Positions 45,832 to 54,774 are shown, numbered from the stretch's first letter. The stretch is DNA of 64,000 nucleotides from Virgifigura deserti (GCA_003576685.1 QOZR01000001.1:1-64000), one strand, 5' to 3'. Program-made: numbers and translations. The notes: generated by a model not told the origin, from the letters alone.

Positions 45832-47028
45832 CTATCCCAGCGCCGTCTCCAGGTCGGCGATCAGGTCCGCTTCGTCCTCGACGCCGACAGACAGCCGTAC
45901 GAGCCCATCGCCGATACCGAGCGCAGTCCGCTTCTCGGCCGGAACCGAGGCGTGGGTCATGATTGCCGGATGCTCGATCAGGCTCTCGACGCCGCCGAGG
46001 CTCTCGGCCAGCGCGAAGATCTGGCAGCGCTCGAGGAAGCGCCGCGCCGCGGGCAGGCCGCCAGCCAGCACTGCCGTCACCATGCCGCCGAAGCCGTGCA
46101 TCTGCCGCCTTGCCAGCGCGTTTTGCGGATGGCTGGCGAGGCCGGGATAGTAGACATGCTCGACCTTCGGGTGCGCCTCGAGCCACGCGGCGATGGCGGC
46201 GGCGTTGCAGCAATGCCGCTCCATCCGCAGGGCCAGAGTCTTCAGGCCGCGCAAGGCGAGAAAGCTGTCGAACGGGCCGGCGACGGCGCCGACCGCGTTC
46301 TGCAGGAAGGCGAGGCGGTCGCGCAGCTCGGTATTCTCGCCGACCACCGCGACGCCGCCGACCATGTCGGAATGGCCGTTGAGGAACTTGGTGGTCGAGT
46401 GCATCACGAGGTCGAAGCCGTGCTCGAGCGGGCGCTGCACCCAGGGGCTGGCGAAGGTGTTGTCCGCGACGGCGAGAACCCCGCGCCGCCGGGCGAGCGC
46501 CGCGACCGCCTCCAGATCGACCAGCTTGAGCAGCGGATTGGTGGGCGTCTCGACCCAAATCATCCGCGTCTCCGGGCGGATCGCGGCCTCGATGGCTGCG
46601 AGGTCGGCAAGGTCAACGAAACTGAAGCTCAGGCCGGCCGAGCGGCGGCGGACACCTTCGAACAGGCGGTAGGTGCCGCCATAGAGATCGTCCATCGCGA
46701 TCACATGGGCGCCGCTGTCGAGGCAGTCGAGAATCGTCGCCGTCGTCGCGAGGCCGGAGGCGAAGGCGAAGCCGGCGCTGCCGCTCTCGAGGTCGGCGAC
46801 GCAGCGCTCGAAGGCCATGCGGGTCGGATTCTGGCTGCGCGAATATTCATAGCCCTTATGGACGCCGGGACTCTCCTGGACGTAGGTCGAGGTGGCGTAG
46901 ATGGGTGTCATGATCGCGCCCGTCGCCGGGTCCGGGGACTGGCCGGCATGGATGCTGCGGGTTGCGAATCCGGGTCGGTTCGGAGAGGGGGCGTTGAAGG
47001 ACGGCTTGGCCGCCGACGTGTCGGTCAT
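45832..47028 (-). CDS. Cystathionine gamma-lyase/synthase family PLP enzyme
   Basis: This 398-aa Cys/Met-metabolism PLP enzyme has YATSTYVQESPGVHKGYEYSRSQNPTR, the Asp in ADNTFASPW and the PLP Lys214 in HSTTKFLNGHSDMVGG. The C-terminal block ESLGGVESLIEHPAIMTHA is present. Family members include cystathionine gamma-synthase and gamma-lyase. Because it directly follows cystathionine beta-synthase (18-nt gap), the lyase reaction (cystathionine to cysteine, ammonia and 2-oxobutyrate) in reverse transsulfuration is more likely. Sequence alone does not separate the two. Confidence 0.88.
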   Translation of the reverse strand: MTDTSAAKPSFNAPSPNRPGFATRSIHAGQSPDPATGAIMTPIYATSTYVQESPGVHKGYEYSRSQNPTRMAFERCVADLESGSAGFAFASGLATTATILDCLDSGAHVIAMDDLYGGTYRLFEGVRRRSAGLSFSFVDLADLAAIEAAIRPETRMIWVETPTNPLLKLVDLEAVAALARRRGVLAVADNTFASPWVQRPLEHGFDLVMHSTTKFLNGHSDMVGGVAVVGENTELRDRLAFLQNAVGAVAGPFDSFLALRGLKTLALRMERHCCNAAAIAAWLEAHPKVEHVYYPGLASHPQNALARRQMHGFGGMVTAVLAGGLPAARRFLERCQIFALAESLGGVESLIEHPAIMTHASVPAEKRTALGIGDGLVRLSVGVEDEADLIADLETALG

Positions 47029-47046
47029 GGGGGGAAGGACCCTGGT

Positions 47047-48417
47047 TCAGGATTTCAGGCTGCGGCGCAGATGGTTCAGCAGGTCGACGCGGGTGATCAG
47101 CCCGAGGAAGGCCCCGCCTTCCATCACGATCGCGACATGATCGCGGCTGAATATCTGCAGAAGCTCGGCGAGCGGGGCCGTTGCCTCGATCGTCTCCAGC
47201 TTGCTGGTCATCGCGTCCTTGACCTTCTCGCGGAACCGGTCTTCGTGGCCGTAGACGGCGAGCAGGATGTCGGACTCGTCGACGATGCCGACGACCTTGC
47301 CGTCGACCAGCACGGGGAGCTGCGAGATATCATAGAGCCGCATCCGCCCGTAGGCGGTCAGCAGCGAATCCTCGGGCGCGACGGTGATCGTCGCCCGGTC
47401 GGAATGCCGCCGCGAGATCAGGTCGCGCAGATCGCCGTGCCGCGTGCGTTCGAGGAAGCCCTGGTCGAGCATCCAGTAGTCGTTGAACATCTTCGACAGA
47501 TATTTGTTGCCGCTGTCGCAGACGAAGCTGACGACGCGCTTCGGCGTCTGCTGTGCCCGGCAGTAATGCAGTGCCGCGGCGACCAGCGTGCCCGACGAGG
47601 AGCCGGCGAGAATGCCCTCCTGGCGCAGCAGCTCCCGCGCGGTGTGGAAGCTCTCGCCGTCGCCGACCGTGATCGCCTGCGAGACGAGGGAGAGGTCGCA
47701 GTTGGGCGGGACGAAGTCCTCGCCGATGCCCTCGACGAGCCAGGAGCCGGCCTCGCACATCTGGCCGGTCTGCACGATGTTCGTCAGCACCGAGCCGCGC
47801 GGGTCGGCGAGCACCATCTTCACATGCGGGGCGGCGCGGGCAAAGAATCGCCCCAGTCCGGTCAACGTGCCGCCGGAGCCGACGCCGCAGACCACGGTGT
47901 CGAGGTCGTGATCCATCTGCTGCCAGATCTCTGGACCGGTACCCTCCTCATGCGCCTTCGGGTTGGCCGGGTTGGCGAACTGGTTGACGTAGAGGGCGTT
48001 GTCGATCTCCTTCGACAGCCGCTCGGCGATGTCTTGATAGTAGTCGGGATGGCCTTTGCCGACATCGGAGCGGGTCATCCGGATCTCGGCGCCCAGCGCG
48101 CGCAGATGGAAGATCTTTTCCTGCGCCATCTTGTCGGGGATCACCAGGATCAGCCGATAGCCCTTCTGCGCCGCGACCAGAGCCAAGCCGAGGCCGGTAT
48201 TGCCGGCGGTCGCCTCGATCAGCGTTCCGCCCGGCCGGATGCGGCCCTCGCGCTCCGCCGCTTCGATCATCGAGAGCGCAATGCGGTCCTTGATGGAGCC
48301 GCCGGGATTCTGCGATTCGAGCTTCAGGAACAAGCGGCAAGGTCCGGTGTCAAGGCGCGTCACCTCGACGAGCGGCGTGTTGCCGATCATCTCGAGGACA
48401 TTGCTGAAGGCGGGCAT
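47047..48417 (-). CDS. cbs: Cystathionine beta-synthase
   Basis: This 456-aa PLP enzyme condenses serine and homocysteine to cystathionine. The catalytic part (residues 1-330) has the PLP Lys43 in SQNPGGSIKDRIALSMIEAAE, TAGNTGLGLALVAAQKGY, GVGSGGTLTGLGRFF and GEDFVPPN. Two C-terminal CBS repeats follow (about 335-456, ISQLPVLVDGKVVGIVDESDIL and VAIVMEGGAFLGLITRVDLL). Full-length CBS with the regulatory pair is typical of cystathionine beta-synthase rather than cysteine synthase. It forms an operon with the following lyase: reverse transsulfuration. Confidence 0.92.
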   Translation of the reverse strand: MPAFSNVLEMIGNTPLVEVTRLDTGPCRLFLKLESQNPGGSIKDRIALSMIEAAEREGRIRPGGTLIEATAGNTGLGLALVAAQKGYRLILVIPDKMAQEKIFHLRALGAEIRMTRSDVGKGHPDYYQDIAERLSKEIDNALYVNQFANPANPKAHEEGTGPEIWQQMDHDLDTVVCGVGSGGTLTGLGRFFARAAPHVKMVLADPRGSVLTNIVQTGQMCEAGSWLVEGIGEDFVPPNCDLSLVSQAITVGDGESFHTARELLRQEGILAGSSSGTLVAAALHYCRAQQTPKRVVSFVCDSGNKYLSKMFNDYWMLDQGFLERTRHGDLRDLISRRHSDRATITVAPEDSLLTAYGRMRLYDISQLPVLVDGKVVGIVDESDILLAVYGHEDRFREKVKDAMTSKLETIEATAPLAELLQIFSRDHVAIVMEGGAFLGLITRVDLLNHLRRSLKS

Positions 48418-49297
48418 GGGGCGATCTCATAGGCCGGTGTGGGCGTTCAAGAGCGCACCTTGCGCAATTGGCCGGCACCGTGCAAGAGCTTCGCGCGATC
48501 GAAGACGTTCCGCTGTTGTGGAAACCGTTGGCCGCAGCCAACTTTCTAAAGCGGATTTCAAACAGCTTTGGAGCCTTGCATCTTTCTTTGTCATTGCCGG
48601 AGTTGCTGCCGAACCACGCTGCTAAGCCCATTCGGAGTAAGCTGTGGCACGGTGCAACCGAATTACTAAAAAGGCTCATGCACCTAGCTCAAAAACCGCT
48701 ATTAGTTGAGTGCCTTTGCCGAGGCAGAATTGCCTACCGCCGGTAGGAACTCTCTGCTTCCTAAAGGCTCTGTTCACCCGTTCCGTGCCACCATCAGTGG
48801 AGGCTGAGATCGAGCATGGAATGGTTTTCCACGAGCTTGCTGGAATTCCAGCCGATGTTCCCGAGCGACGAAGCCTGCACGGCGTATCTTCGACCACGAT
48901 TTTCATTTCGTGCGGTACACCACTTTCTTCGCGGTCGAACGCTACAAGGAAGAAACGGCGATCCCGAGCGACGCGCTGGCCGCGGAGCTGGAAGAAAGGT
49001 GAACGCCGCCTCGCTCGTGGCCGAATGGCGACTGACCACCCATGCGGCGATTTCCCAAACAGCAGTATCAAGCCACTCGCCTGCTTCCGCCTTTGGGGGT
49101 ATCGATTGTCCACACATCGCACGAGGCCGGCGTGTGGGACCGAAGTCAATCACGACTGCTGTACGCCAGAGCTGACCTTCGCAGACGCGCTCAGCCCGTC
49201 AGTGCGCGATCCAAAGCCGCAATCAGAAGCGCAGCCCGACTGTGAGACCTCTCGGATCTGCGCCGGACCGGCGGCGCAAGACGCGCTATCGCGCTAC
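48418..49297. other. 880-nt non-coding region with decayed mobile-element sequence
   Basis: No intact gene is supported between cbs and the ABC_sub_bind gene. Base composition is lower in GC than the flanks and open frames on both strands lack family resemblance, except for the transposase-like fragment at 48816-48890. A short hairpin GTTGGC-CGCA-GCCAAC lies at 48527-48542. The region probably represents eroded insertion sequences. Confidence 0.5.
48816..48890 (+). pseudogene. Fragment resembling IS1595-family transposase N-terminus
   Basis: The frame from 48816 reads SLLEFQPMFPSDEACTAYL, which matches the N-terminal LLEFQ-x-MFP-x-EEAC-x-AYL pattern of IS1595-type transposases. The similarity stops after about 25 residues, where the zinc-finger block (CPxCG) should follow but does not. 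It is therefore a remnant. Only this short motif supports the call. Confidence 0.4.
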
Positions 49298-50290
49298 CTA
49301 ATTCACCGTCTCGGCCACCTGCAGCAACCCCATGGGCGGAAAGAGCTTCAGCGCCTTGGCAACCTCTAAATTGATCACAACGGCGAAGTCGATCATCCGG
49401 ACCACCGGCAGGTCGCCGGGAACGGCGCCGTCGACCAGAATCCGCTCCGCCTGGCCGCCGGCGAGACGGCCAACATCGTAATAGCGCGCGGCCACCGAAA
49501 TCAGCGCCTGGGACTCGCGGACGAGCCGCTCGTACGGGCTGAGGACTGGAAGCCCGTTTTCGACGGCGGCCGCAGTGAAGGCGGCGCCGTTCTCCTGAAG
49601 GAATGAGGACGAGCCGACATAGACGAAGTCGACGCCGGCGGCCTTCAGCTCGGCTACCTTCGGGGCGATGTCCTCAGCTCGCGGATTGCCATCGTCGCCG
49701 AGGGGCAGCTCAAGGGCGGTCATTTCGAAACCCATCTCGTCAGTCAGCGCCGCGATCTCGTCGCGCTTGAGAGCCGAATTCGCTTCGTTGGTATGATAAA
49801 GCAGGCCCAAGTGGTCGAAGTCGGGATAATAAGCTCGGATCGTTTCGATCGTCACCTCTTCGGGCATCCGGTTGTACGTGCCGGTGAGGTTGGGACGGCC
49901 TGTGTGGTCAAGGCTGTTGATCAACCCCGCCCCGACCGGGTCGGCGACGATCATGAAAATCTGGGGAATGTCCTGATTAAAATTCGGGTTGCCGAGATCG
50001 GCAAGCGTCCCAGCAATGCCCCGGGTGACACTGGTGCCCCAGGTCAGGATCAGGTCGGCGTCGGCGGCGCGGGCCTCAGCGAGGATTCCAGGAAGGGCCT
50101 CTTCCTTTTGCGCCGCGTCGCGCAGGATGAACTCGACCCCGAGACCCTTCTCGGCGAGATAATCCTGAAAGCCTTGGCAGGCTTGCTCACAGCCCCGCCA
50201 AGTGGCGATCAAAACCTTGTAGTCCGCCGCCGCCGCCGAGCCGGCGAGTCCCGCCGCGAGGGCCGCCGCAGCGAGGACCAATCGAATCAT
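49298..50290 (-). CDS. Periplasmic ABC_sub_bind (TrpX-like) substrate-binding protein
   Basis: This 330-aa protein has a signal peptide (MIRLVLAAAALAAGLAGSAAAA) and a binding domain of the ABC_sub_bind family. ADLILTWGTSVTRGIAG, IPQIFMIVADPVGAGLINSLDHTGRPNLTGTYNRMPEEVTIETI and FVYVGSSSFLQENGAAFTAAAVENGLPVLS are family features. Such proteins bind small ligands such as tryptophan or phenylalanine for ABC importers, but here there is no ABC permease or ATPase. Instead its ATG overlaps (ATGA) the stop of a sensor-MFS fusion gene. I infer that it presents a ligand to that protein or to the periplasmic sensors. Mature Cys residues (GCEQACQG) could form a disulfide. Confidence 0.87.
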   Translation of the reverse strand: MIRLVLAAAALAAGLAGSAAAADYKVLIATWRGCEQACQGFQDYLAEKGLGVEFILRDAAQKEEALPGILAEARAADADLILTWGTSVTRGIAGTLADLGNPNFNQDIPQIFMIVADPVGAGLINSLDHTGRPNLTGTYNRMPEEVTIETIRAYYPDFDHLGLLYHTNEANSALKRDEIAALTDEMGFEMTALELPLGDDGNPRAEDIAPKVAELKAAGVDFVYVGSSSFLQENGAAFTAAAVENGLPVLSPYERLVRESQALISVAARYYDVGRLAGGQAERILVDGAVPGDLPVVRMIDFAVVINLEVAKALKLFPPMGLLQVAETVN

Positions 50291-52290
50291 CCATTCCTCC
50301 CAAGCTTTTGTGTTGGCCGCGTCCAGCGAACGTGCCCGGCGATGATAGCAAAGGCAGCAGTTCCGGTCAGCACGACAATGCCTGAGATCCGGAGGATCGT
50401 CTCTGTCCCGATATCACGAAGGAATGTGGCGCTTACCGCGAGGCCGAGAAGCGCGCCGAGCCGCTCGACCACGCGCAGCGCGTCCAGGTTCCCACCGACC
50501 CCGTCCGTGACGCTGATAGCGAGCGTGTATTGCGGTGCCCGGATGAGGGTGTGGCCAAGGCCAACTCCAGCGACCGCGACAGTGATAGCCCAGACGCTAT
50601 CCCAAAGGCCGATTGACAGTACGGCCAAGCCTGACACGGCCGAACCGATGACGACGAGGGCGATGGGGCCGAGCCGGCCGTCCGAAAGGTGGGTTACGGT
50701 CGGGCCAAACAGGACGACCGCGAGATAGTACAGCATCACCACACGGGCGATTTCGGCCGGACCGTGGCCCGAGGCCGCGAGCATCAGAGGCGTTAGGTAC
50801 CAAACCAGAATGGCGGTGATCGCGTTCATCGGGGCCGTAATGCCGATGAGCAAGGCAAGGAACCGGGCGGTGAACCGCCGCTTCGTGACGCGTGCTATCG
50901 GCGTGGATCGCGAGGCAGCGGAATCGCCTGCCCGGCCCATCATTGCCGTTATCGCGATGGCGCCCGACAATATCGCGATCGCCGCACCCGCAAAAAAGGC
51001 CGCCTCAAAGCCGAACCGGCCGGCGAGGACTCCACCCAGGGCCGAGCCGCCAAATACGCCACCAAAGACGACGGCGACAAGGGCCCCCGCCGGGCGAGCG
51101 CTACGTCCGTCCCCCGCGGCGCGGATGGCGTATTCGTGGCAGGCGATGGTCGCGAGGGCGAAGAATCCCCCCGTTGCCGCGTGCCAGAAGCTGATTCCAG
51201 CCACACTGTCCGACAACCCCATCGCCATCAGCGCGAGGGCAGTGAGCGGCACAGACGCCAGGAACAGGCGCCGTGGCCCGAGCCGCCGCGCCATACGGCC
51301 ACCGAATGGTGACAAGGCTGCCACCGCGACGAGATAGAGGAGGAAGGGCGCCGCCGCGGCCATCTCGGGCGAGAGCCAGTTCGGCCGGACGGCGGCCCGG
51401 GCATAGAGCGGCAGGAAGCTGTTCGCGATTGCCGTCGCGAGCGTGAACAGGAACAGCGCCAGTCTTATGTCGTTGAAGTCGGAGAGGCGAAGCCGCACCG
51501 GACGGCCCTCCGAGATCCGCGCGTCGATGGCGCCGGTGATGCGGATTCGCGCGGCGCTGGGTAGCGCCGCCAGCCGCTCGGCCAAATCAGCGGCCTGATC
51601 ATTGAGCCTCGAAGCAGCGCGGCCGAGGCCGGAGAGGCCGCCGGGGGGGATGCAATGTACGAAGTTGCCTTCGCGCTGTTCGCTCAACAGGCGAATGATG
51701 CGGTCGAAGGGTTTCCCAACCGAGCTCACGGCCACTGCCAGCGCCAGCTCAAGCGCGACCAAGCTCGCAACGAGCGCGATCACCACGACATCAAGGAACA
51801 CGTCACGCAGCCGCGTCTCCACGAACTGCGGACTGACCTCTACGACGATCGCGCCGACCAACTCGTTGCCGACGAGGATCGGCAGCGAGAAGGTGTTGCG
51901 CTGGACGCCGACTACTTTGCCCAGGCCGGTCTGCTCAAGAAGCGAGCGTCCCGTGGGGCTTCGGGCCTCCGCGACAGTCGACCCGGACGCCGTATTGACG
52001 GAGATGTAATCGACCTCGCTGAACTGCTCCAGCGTCTCGGAGAGGTAGCGGTCCAGGCCAGCCAGTGCGTCGAACGGTATCCCGAGCTGCAGGCTGCGCT
52101 GGACCTCGCTTCGAATGATCGAGCCGATGAGACGCGTCCGGTTGGCCAGCTCCGGCGCGACCGCGCGATCGAAGGCGGTAATGGCTGTGAGGCCAAGCGC
52201 CAGGACCGAGGCCGTGACAATGGCCGTCAGCATGCCGATCAGGCGTGCGCGGACCCGTACATGGTCGAAACCGCGGGCGCGGGACCTCAC
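50287..52290 (-). CDS. Fusion of periplasmic sensor domain, HAMP-like linker and MFS transporter
   Basis: The protein has 667 aa. Residues about 18-40 are a first membrane helix, 41-165 a periplasmic sensor-like domain (SIIRSEVQRSLQLGIPFDALAGLDRYL ... VGVQRNTFSLPILVGNELVGAIVVEVSP, resembling a single Cache-type fold), and 168-192 a second helix. Residues about 190-245 form a HAMP-like segment (VGKPFDRIIRLLSEQREGNF ... LNDQAADLAERLAAL). From about residue 275 twelve further helices form an MFS transporter with RMARRLGPRRLFLAS as loop 2-3 motif. The start is GTG overlapping the sensor gene stop (GTGA). Chemoreceptor-like input on an MFS pump is rare. The ligand and transported compound are unknown. 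Confidence 0.85.
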   Translation of the reverse strand: MRSRARGFDHVRVRARLIGMLTAIVTASVLALGLTAITAFDRAVAPELANRTRLIGSIIRSEVQRSLQLGIPFDALAGLDRYLSETLEQFSEVDYISVNTASGSTVAEARSPTGRSLLEQTGLGKVVGVQRNTFSLPILVGNELVGAIVVEVSPQFVETRLRDVFLDVVVIALVASLVALELALAVAVSSVGKPFDRIIRLLSEQREGNFVHCIPPGGLSGLGRAASRLNDQAADLAERLAALPSAARIRITGAIDARISEGRPVRLRLSDFNDIRLALFLFTLATAIANSFLPLYARAAVRPNWLSPEMAAAAPFLLYLVAVAALSPFGGRMARRLGPRRLFLASVPLTALALMAMGLSDSVAGISFWHAATGGFFALATIACHEYAIRAAGDGRSARPAGALVAVVFGGVFGGSALGGVLAGRFGFEAAFFAGAAIAILSGAIAITAMMGRAGDSAASRSTPIARVTKRRFTARFLALLIGITAPMNAITAILVWYLTPLMLAASGHGPAEIARVVMLYYLAVVLFGPTVTHLSDGRLGPIALVVIGSAVSGLAVLSIGLWDSVWAITVAVAGVGLGHTLIRAPQYTLAISVTDGVGGNLDALRVVERLGALLGLAVSATFLRDIGTETILRISGIVVLTGTAAFAIIAGHVRWTRPTQKLGRNG

Positions 52291-53063
52291 CGCGGCCCAT
52301 CCTTTAGAGCTGCAATCGCGTGCCCCGCGGTGCGATAGCTGCTGTCGGCTGCGTCCAGCAGGCGGCGTAGTTCATCGGTGTCGTGCCCGGCGTCCCGGGA
52401 GGGGCTGCCCGCCGCCGCGCTGCGCCAGGAATCCTGCTCGAACCCGGCGATGGTCACGTCGATAGTCTCGAAGGCCTCAATCTGCCGGGCAAGCCCAAGG
52501 CGAAGCAGAAGGCCGCTGAACGCCGCTGCCGTCACGAGCACTCCCATCGCGGCCAGCGCCAATTCGGCTGCCATCGCTCGTACCCGGGTAACGTTGCCTC
52601 CGGACGAATAGGCGACCAGAATGCCTCCCGCGAGGCTTTCGCCGCGGCCGGCGATGTCAATGCTGCCGAGGAACCCTTCAGCAGTCTCGCTGTACCAGGG
52701 CGTGCCGCTAGCCTCGACACGAGCCACCACTGCCTTCCGTGGAATCGACGCGGGTGGCAATGTGTCAGTTGAGTGAACGATCCGGCCTTCGGCGTCGAAG
52801 ACATGGATCGCAGTAATCGAACTATCGCTCTGTCGCGCGCGCTCGAGCAGGGCCGCGGCGTTGCGAACGGAGGACAGCGGCAGGCCGATTTTCGCCGCCG
52901 CTTCGAACGGCGCCGCAGTGTGATCTGCTAAGACAACCAGCCGCTCGCCGACCAAGCCGGAATGAATTTGGTCGAACTGAAGGGTCGCGAGCCCGACGAA
53001 AATCGCGAGCACCGCAAAATTGACGATGGTCACCGCCGCCCAGATTCGCCAGAAAAGCGCCAT
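52287..53063 (-). CDS. Two-TM periplasmic sensor protein without output domain
   Basis: This 258-aa membrane protein has helix one at residues about 8-30 (WAAVTIVNFAVLAIFVGLATL) and a periplasmic domain at 31-165 containing SSITAIHVFDAEGRIVHSTDTLPP, a PAS/Cache-like strand pattern. Helix two lies at about 168-190. A short cytoplasmic tail (DTDELRRLLDAADSSYRTAGHAIAAL) is predicted helical and HAMP-like. There is no kinase, cyclase or methyl-accepting domain, so it cannot signal alone. It is the first gene of the three-gene unit, and its stop overlaps the start of the fusion gene, suggesting a sensory partner subunit. The layout mirrors the N-terminal 245 residues of the next protein. Confidence 0.78.
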   Translation of the reverse strand: MALFWRIWAAVTIVNFAVLAIFVGLATLQFDQIHSGLVGERLVVLADHTAAPFEAAAKIGLPLSSVRNAAALLERARQSDSSITAIHVFDAEGRIVHSTDTLPPASIPRKAVVARVEASGTPWYSETAEGFLGSIDIAGRGESLAGGILVAYSSGGNVTRVRAMAAELALAAMGVLVTAAAFSGLLLRLGLARQIEAFETIDVTIAGFEQDSWRSAAAGSPSRDAGHDTDELRRLLDAADSSYRTAGHAIAALKDGPR

Positions 53064-53541
53064 CGTCCCCCGCCGAGAGATTATTGCTCCGGTGCATTAC
53101 ATCGGCGATCGAGTCGGCAATCAATAGGGCCGCAACCTATTCGCGAGCCGGGCAGCCGGACCCCGCTTCGCGGTTCAGCACGCGCGAATTCTGTATTATA
53201 CATCTTTGTTGCTTGGCCGCTGAGATATTCAGCTTCCCGTCTGAAGTTCGAGAGAGTTTGCCGAGTCCCATAAGCCGCTCGGGTCGCTGCAATGACGACA
53301 GGAAAAAACAATAAAGCCGACCAGCTGGCTAACATTAGATTCGGCAGTTTGAGGAGTAGATTCTGAAGTTGGCGATGAAAATGTTCCGGCAGAATAGGCC
53401 GTTCCGTTCACAAACCCGATTGTCGCCCGATCGTAACGAACGTACGGCGCCGGATGCCGAGCTTGTTCTTCTGCCTGACGAGTGCATGGAGCGGGTCGTA
53501 ATGGTGGTGCAAAGGGTTGTTCCGATTTCGGGTGCTGAGAA
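53064..53541. promoter_or_regulatory. 478-nt gap upstream of the sensor-MFS operon
   Basis: This gap is non-coding and noticeably AT-richer than its surroundings, lying between the ilvA stop and the sensor gene start. It must contain the promoter of the sensor/MFS/binding-protein operon. I saw no tRNA, riboswitch or clear terminator. An open frame near 53408-53540 on the minus strand lacks family resemblance and was not annotated. Confidence 0.45.
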
Positions 53542-54774
53542 CTATCCCGGCAGATCCACCGACCGGCTGCTCAGGAGGCGCGTCGGGAAGCCGCCGTCGG
53601 CGAGCGCGGTGACGATCTCGCGGACATGGTCGGCGTTCCGGGTCTCGATCATCGCGTCGACATCCGCCTTCTTGACCGGGAGGTCGTAGAACATGCGCTG
53701 GTGGTAGATCTCGATAATGTTGCCGCCGGTCTCGCCGATCAGGCGTGCCAGATGGGCGAGGACGCCGGGCGAGTCGGAGATCTCGATACGCAGCGTCACC
53801 ACGCGGCTGTCGCGGATCAGGCCGCGCATCAGCACCTGGGCCAGCATCCGGGAATCGATGTTGCCGCCGCAGATCACGACGCCGACGCGTTTCCCCGCGA
53901 ACCGGTCGGGATAGGCGAGCAGGGCCGCCAGGCCGGCGGCGCCGGCGCCCTCGGCAACGATCTTCTGCCGCTCGACCAGCATCTGCACCGCGCATTCCAG
54001 CGCATCTTCGTCGACGAGAAGGATGTCCTCGACGGCCTTCTCGATGATCGCTTTGGTGATCGCGCCCGGCGACTTCACGGCGATACCCTCGGCGATCGTC
54101 TGCCCGCCACTGGCCGGGGCCAGGTTGCGGACGGAATGGTGCATCGAGGGGTAGAGCGCGCATTCGACGCCGACGATCGAGATCTCGGGTTTCAGCGCCT
54201 TCGCGGCGAGCGCGATGCCGGAAATCAGGCCGCCGCCGCCGATCGGGACGACGATCACGTCGAGTTCGGGGGCATCCTCCAGGAACTCGAGGCCGATGGT
54301 GCCTTGGCCGGCGACGATCTTCGGGTCATCATAGGGATGGACGAAGCACAGCCCCTCGCGCTTGGCGAGGTCGCGGGCGAAGACCGCCGCAGAATCGATA
54401 CCGTCGCCCTGCAGCAGCACCCGGGCGCCGAAGCTGCGCGTCCGCTCGACCTTGGTGAAGGGGGTTCCCTGCGGCATCACGATCGTCGCCGGAATGCCGA
54501 GCCTCTGCGCATGGTAGGCCACGCCCTGAGCATGGTTGCCGGCCGACATCGCGATCACGCCCGCCTTGGCTTCCTGCGGGCTCAGGCTCTTCAGCTTGTT
54601 GAGCGCGCCGCGGTCCTTGAATGAGCCGGTGAACTGCAGGTTCTCCAGCTTCAACACGAGCTCCGCCGCGCCGGTCGTCTCGGCTAGGCGGCGAGCATTG
54701 ACTGCCGGGGTGCGCACGACCTCGCCCGTGATTGCCGCGGCGGCCGCGCGGATGTCGTCGATCGTCACCGTCAT
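53542..54774 (-). CDS. ilvA: Threonine ammonia-lyase (threonine dehydratase)
   Basis: This 410-aa PLP enzyme deaminates threonine (or serine) to 2-oxobutyrate. The PLP Lys53 lies in FTGSFKDRGALNK, with SAGNHAQGVAYHAQ, the Gly-rich PIGGGGLISG and GEGAGAAGLAALL. The C-terminal ACT-like domain (residues about 330-410, VVTLRIEISDSPGVLAHLARLIGETGGNIIEIYHQR) is a single copy, as in catabolic or short biosynthetic forms; whether it serves isoleucine synthesis cannot be decided here. The ATG at 54774 matches the family start. Confidence 0.92.
   Translation of the reverse strand: MTVTIDDIRAAAAAITGEVVRTPAVNARRLAETTGAAELVLKLENLQFTGSFKDRGALNKLKSLSPQEAKAGVIAMSAGNHAQGVAYHAQRLGIPATIVMPQGTPFTKVERTRSFGARVLLQGDGIDSAAVFARDLAKREGLCFVHPYDDPKIVAGQGTIGLEFLEDAPELDVIVVPIGGGGLISGIALAAKALKPEISIVGVECALYPSMHHSVRNLAPASGGQTIAEGIAVKSPGAITKAIIEKAVEDILLVDEDALECAVQMLVERQKIVAEGAGAAGLAALLAYPDRFAGKRVGVVICGGNIDSRMLAQVLMRGLIRDSRVVTLRIEISDSPGVLAHLARLIGETGGNIIEIYHQRMFYDLPVKKADVDAMIETRNADHVREIVTALADGGFPTRLLSSRSVDLPG

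Follow-up and report, generated by a model that had tools for sequence, protein, structure and literature searches.

Within a window of 64,000 nucleotides from Virgifigura deserti (GCA_003576685.1, QOZR01000001.1:1-64000; "the window" means this whole stretch) we identified a unit of three minus-strand genes at positions 49298 to 53063. They encode an output-less membrane sensor (SENS), a fusion of a homologous sensor head to a major facilitator superfamily (MFS) domain (FUS), and a periplasmic substrate-binding protein of the ABC_sub_bind type (SBP). We propose, at a probability of roughly 0.55, that this triad is a binding-protein-dependent sensory complex in which the MFS domain acts as the transducer. 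Its probable task is the sensing, and perhaps also the import, of a single small molecule with no ABC transporter involved.

From the anatomy of the three proteins we infer how such a complex might work. SBP would capture a small ligand in the periplasm and, once loaded, would dock on the membrane pair of SENS and FUS, whose homologous Cache-type heads would form a heterodimer. The signal would run via the membrane helices and the HAMP-like linker of FUS into the MFS domain, and the conformation of this domain would be the readout, whether or not the ligand passes through. In relatives the readout is presumably coupled to a dCache-HAMP-SpoIIE phosphatase with a STAS/HATPase switch, to a guanylate/adenylate cyclase or to a type VI secretion system (T6SS) operon. 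Since the cassette was inserted alone in the window, it might here be a stand-alone uptake or sensing unit, or its output might be encoded elsewhere in the genome.

Gene arrangement and conservation

The genes are transcribed in the order SENS, FUS, SBP, and all three reading frames are intact. SENS (52287..53063, 258 aa) consists of a transmembrane (TM) helix, an sCache/PAS-like periplasmic domain (about residues 59-153), a second TM helix and cytoplasmic helices. FUS (50287..52290, 667 aa) has a GTG start that overlaps the SENS stop codon in a GTGA (52287..52290; tcac on the plus strand), and the ATG of SBP (49298..50290, 330 aa, with an apparent N-terminal signal sequence) overlaps the FUS stop codon in an ATGA (50287..50290; tcat on the plus strand). 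The sequence thus bore out both overlaps described in a first-pass annotation of this DNA. The fixed stoichiometry which that annotation read from them goes further than they allow, as such overlaps suggest translational coupling at most.

We scanned GTDB species genomes with a FUS alignment and obtained 80 loci, in the choice of which neighbouring genes played no part; a single-sequence FUS scan of genome contigs gave no matches. The loci came mainly from Alpha- and Gammaproteobacteria, with few from Betaproteobacteria. Some lie on contigs of metagenome-assembled genomes that carry other names and are possibly mis-binned, and some are closely related to each other, so that they do not represent 80 independent cases. 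SBP was found in 78 loci (75 full length, three cut by contig ends), and the contigs of the remaining two stop at or just after FUS. SENS, either separate or fused, was present in 77 of the 78 loci with room for it, the exception being a Hahella locus (L120). The conserved co-occurrence that the first-pass annotation had named as a check on the unit was therefore found. Kept in all 78 loci with room, which were picked regardless of its presence, SBP is associated with FUS beyond chance. It was also the best-conserved member of the triad, with 29-54% identity across relatives. The modal spacing at both joints in relatives was a 4-bp overlap, and FUS homologues from whole-genome searches at the levels of class and phylum showed the same gene pattern.

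Two homologous sensors that might pair

Neither HisKA nor HATPase was detected by Pfam in SENS or FUS. SENS had no significant Pfam match and none to TRAP or TTT families, and FUS gave MFS_1 only (residues 277-616, E 1.5e-16). AlphaFold2 models were built from alignments of 67 (SENS) and 73 (FUS) sequences and reached a pLDDT of 88.7 for SENS and 88.2 for FUS (pTM 0.87). Both models showed the layout of TM helix, Cache/PAS head, TM helix and cytoplasmic helices, and Foldseek matched SENS to CitA, WalK, KinD and other sensor domains. As in Cache-domain receptors, the models have a Cache/PAS fold that lies outside the cytoplasm and is framed by two TM helices; the Pfam Cache models did not match the window proteins. 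Profile-profile comparison placed the homology of SENS to the front of FUS at 99.6% (hhalign, E 1.8e-23), in agreement with the shared two-helix, periplasmic-domain layout noted earlier from the sequence.

Residues 1-262 of FUS (51505..52290) comprise this SENS-homologous head and a HAMP-like linker, as judged from hhalign, the model and receptor profiles. The HAMP-like character ascribed to the linker in the first-pass annotation held in part: at the profile level it aligned to regions next to the membrane in receptors of solved structure (E ~1e-4), but Pfam HAMP was not matched in the window proteins. Past this stretch, residues 273-653 (50332..51474) form a twelve-helix MFS domain with the NorA/MdfA/VMAT (DHA-type) fold and window-specific losses, according to Pfam, the model, Foldseek and a comparison of residues. 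In Foldseek this part resembled VMAT, NorA and MdfA with TMt values of 0.7-0.85.

That SENS and FUS could pair, as had been suggested, gains support from their homology, from natural fusions and from their mutual distance correlation. SENS and FUS formed one open reading frame in five of the 80 loci (L065, L067, L068, L070, L123), and single reading frames were also found in L176, from the taxonomic family of the window, and in L180. Among 46 non-redundant sets the partial distance correlation between SENS and the FUS head, a crude measure, was 0.49-0.68, which made it the top pair under every distance measure. A ranking of docking preferences of SBP by the same kind of correlation was dropped, as it was not robust to the distance measure.

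A binding protein without ABC partners

Residues 35-327 of SBP matched ABC_sub_bind (PF04392) with an E value of 3.5e-24, which confirmed the family named in the first-pass annotation. The score against the NCBIfam TrpX model was 89 bits, under the model cut-off of 390. Solved relatives (6hni, 3lkv, 3lft) are binding proteins of ABC importers, and the ligands of some of them are presumably aromatic amino acids. No ABC permease or ATPase gene was found near SBP in the window, and none adjoined it in the related loci. More than 3 kb of sequence followed SBP in 66 loci; in none of these did a permease resembling the one in the canonical set (L143, below) lie beside it, and ABC ATPases were encoded kilobases away only. 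Loci in which the binding protein is followed by ABC genes and the MFS gene is absent, which were to count against the first-pass model, were not seen among the FUS-selected loci, while SBP-selected loci were not covered exhaustively.

The genome of the window encodes a canonical set of SBP, BPD_transp_2 permease and ABC_tran ATPase elsewhere (L143). On contig C34 of the same genome (L144, 2050-6488) a third ABC_sub_bind SBP, a Phenol_MetA_deg protein and an sCache-HAMP-GAF histidine kinase are encoded in a row, and there are no ABC genes. This clustering with a sensor kinase indicates that the SBP family can also occur with sensors and supports the sensory reading of the triad. In another locus (L055, 5684-9495) a plain 424-aa MFS gene without sensor head lies near two ABC_sub_bind-like genes.

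Gene neighbourhoods of related loci

Neighbouring genes were called with profiles built from single seeds and with our own gene caller, so that the following counts are approximate. A SpoIIE phosphatase, usually preceded by a dCache-like head and HAMP, was encoded nearby in 36 of the 80 loci, accompanied by a STAS gene in 20 and a HATPase_c_2 gene in 24 of these. Two or more type VI secretion genes were present in 19/80 loci and one such gene in six more, a guanylate/adenylate cyclase was found in three, and 20 loci had neither SpoIIE nor T6SS nor cyclase neighbours.

The triad abuts T6SS genes in marine gammaproteobacteria and in some alphaproteobacteria. In most Vibrio, Photobacterium and Marinomonas loci vgrG starts about 34-75 bp past SBP and is followed by DUF6931, PAAR, tssA, hcp, tssB and tssC. 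In L088 (11209-18124) and about 18 similar loci the triad either immediately precedes a T6SS operon starting with vgrG, DUF6931 and PAAR or is oriented divergently from it; a triad in this position is a candidate input for T6SS control. The T6SS gene VipB was encoded on the same contig, about 14-22 kb from the FUS homologue, in three alphaproteobacterial genomes (G040, G274, G015). Term counts and passages from a paper on T6SS3 of Vibrio proteolyticus contain no mention of MFS, transporter or substrate-binding.

Some loci also encode divergent second pairs (SENS2-FUS2) beside the main triad, with a gene for a cyclase or SpoIIE protein after the pair (L042, 2258-7095; L043, 11314-16163; L049, 2910-7662), and the FUS2 proteins of L042 and L049 had no Pfam match. 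Seven loci (L056-L062) encode distant sensor-MFS fusions of about 800 aa; several keep an SBP-like gene, most adjoin ATP-grasp (D-Ala-D-Ala-ligase-like) genes, and L056 lies beside a GCS2 gene.

The copy in Virgifigura deserti

In the window the triad comprises the sole recognisable genes of a lineage-specific insert (48420..53559) between a threonine dehydratase and a CysK-CBS gene. In four sister-genus genomes these two genes are direct neighbours with 17-149 bp between them, and the triad therefore most simply arrived as a block of about 5.1 kb. Only weak, chance-like repeats were found as terminal repeats bounding the insert. At one edge (48825-48890) a short peptide resembles the N-terminus of an IS1595-family transposase (64% over 22 aa, E 0.7), possibly an unproven fossil. 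Opposite the CysK-CBS and cystathionine-synthase-like genes, the plus strand has an 826-aa open frame (45952-48432) that seems to be an artefact of high GC content. No PADLOC defence families were detected.

Only one other of 17 family members encoded FUS (G752), in that case fused to SENS and followed by SBP and a cyclase-domain gene. The SBP tree united the window, L066 and two loci from Pseudomonas (SH-aLRT 100) in a clade without SpoIIE or T6SS neighbours. The window genome does contain T6SS VipB genes, on another contig. Substitutions in the window FUS at conserved columns included R370H, G376F and P617L, and the TM1 acidic pair and motif-A Asp that are present in most relatives were lost. 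This divergence and the possible transposase fossil might be read as signs that three genes of different origin came together in the window by chance and are now drifting. The reading frames are nevertheless intact and joined by both overlaps, the same gene order occurs in other genera, the window SBP is 54% identical to that of L066, and the triad was inserted as one block. Conserved co-occurrence and spacing have largely refuted a chance or decaying association, and we regard it as highly improbable.

Sensing or transport

Many relatives carry the triad next to SpoIIE/STAS/HATPase, cyclase or T6SS genes, and we therefore consider regulation no less probable than transport. Such neighbours speak for signalling; the clade of the window, in which output genes are missing, speaks for a unit complete in itself.

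The importer proposed in the first-pass annotation has the same anatomy as the sensory complex and differs only in whether the ligand crosses the membrane. SBP would hand its ligand over to the MFS domain for ion-coupled passage, gated or monitored by the Cache heads, in parallel to TRAP and TTT. The MFS domain is indeed complete with twelve helices, and the motif FR..ER.G in TM11 is kept in nearly all members, including R606, E609, R610 and G612 in the window; its fold, however, is nearest to NorA, MdfA and VMAT, which are mostly efflux antiporters, and the window copy lacks the acidic TM1 and motif-A residues named above. The presence of SBP at every locus with room and the standalone clade without output genes (window, L066, Pseudomonas) would suit an importer, but signalling outputs lie beside many other relatives. 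A partial correlation of 0.42 between SBP and the MFS domain (Kimura distances) points the same way, although this preference changes with the distance measure. We regard import of this kind as a tentative alternative, second in likelihood to the sensory complex. In the light of the lost MFS residues, transport by the window FUS seems doubtful and is the least certain point of our interpretation.

The MFS domain might instead move a substrate of its own, for example as an exporter, with the SBP-loaded sensor pair acting only as its regulator and the ligand of SBP as a signal that never enters the MFS domain. The DHA-type fold and the position of the Cache heads and HAMP-like linker on a cytoplasmic path are compatible with such an arrangement, and in some relatives a metabolite for export could come from ATP-grasp ligases and GNAT-like enzymes encoded nearby. 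Biosynthetic genes were, however, absent from the window insert, none were seen in the T6SS-linked gammaproteobacterial loci, and no exporter partner proteins were seen, which makes this arrangement rather improbable.

Several observations weigh against our preferred reading, the sensory complex. The partial correlations of SBP were spread over all three partners (0.2-0.42 in the 46 non-redundant sets), so that no docking surface was singled out. Among alphaproteobacterial genomes the presence of a T6SS was not enriched with FUS (7/28 versus 63/357 genomes, Fisher p 0.32), and the link to T6SS thus appears local and lineage-specific. No output gene lies beside the window triad, and SpoIIE is absent from the window genome. 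Finally, the window MFS departs from relatives at 23 of about 66 highly conserved columns, and its function may therefore differ from that of the relatives.

Relation to known systems and significance

In LuxP-LuxQ and TorT-TorS a periplasmic binding protein acts on a membrane sensor, with no need for a transporter role, and the sensors are histidine kinases. The triad likewise combines a binding protein with membrane sensors, but neither of its sensors contains a kinase, and an MFS domain forms the C-terminal part of one of them. To our knowledge, binding-protein-dependent sensing is known mainly for kinases. Transporter-fold proteins serve sensing in UhpC-UhpB and in transporter-sensor fusions such as CbrA; the triad differs from these in the lack of a histidine kinase, in the Cache head ahead of the MFS domain and in the SBP of every unit. 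The RsbU-type SpoIIE/STAS/HATPase partner-switching module is encoded beside the triad in many relatives, and we know of no Rsb module that includes the triad.

TRAP and TTT systems combine an SBP with a small and a large membrane protein for secondary transport without an ATPase, and they are the only cases of binding-protein-dependent secondary transport known to us. The triad has an MFS domain as its membrane domain instead, its SBP is of the ABC_sub_bind type, and its small protein, a Cache sensor, is homologous to the N-terminal part of FUS. Multicomponent SBP systems are listed in a review (PMC8276074). With ABC importers of the ABC_sub_bind/TrpXYZ type the triad shares the SBP family PF04392, yet its SBP gene lacks adjoining genes for a BPD_transp_2 permease or an ABC_tran ATPase. 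Each component is thus of a known kind, and in agreement with the first-pass annotation we found no description of the combination as a system in the open-access literature, most subscription journals being outside that scope. It is conceivable, if unlikely, that the triad represents a new secondary transporter-receptor class in which SBP would load an MFS domain under the control of a heterodimeric Cache head and which would also serve as a switch for T6SS or for a SpoIIE partner-switching cascade.

The triad is a conserved cassette in which a binding protein is combined with a pair of Cache sensors and an MFS domain. Its place in T6SS operons points to a concrete candidate, open to test, for an outside cue that controls secretion in marine bacteria, and for laboratory work the standalone SENS-FUS fusions of Pseudomonas provide a model of two genes.

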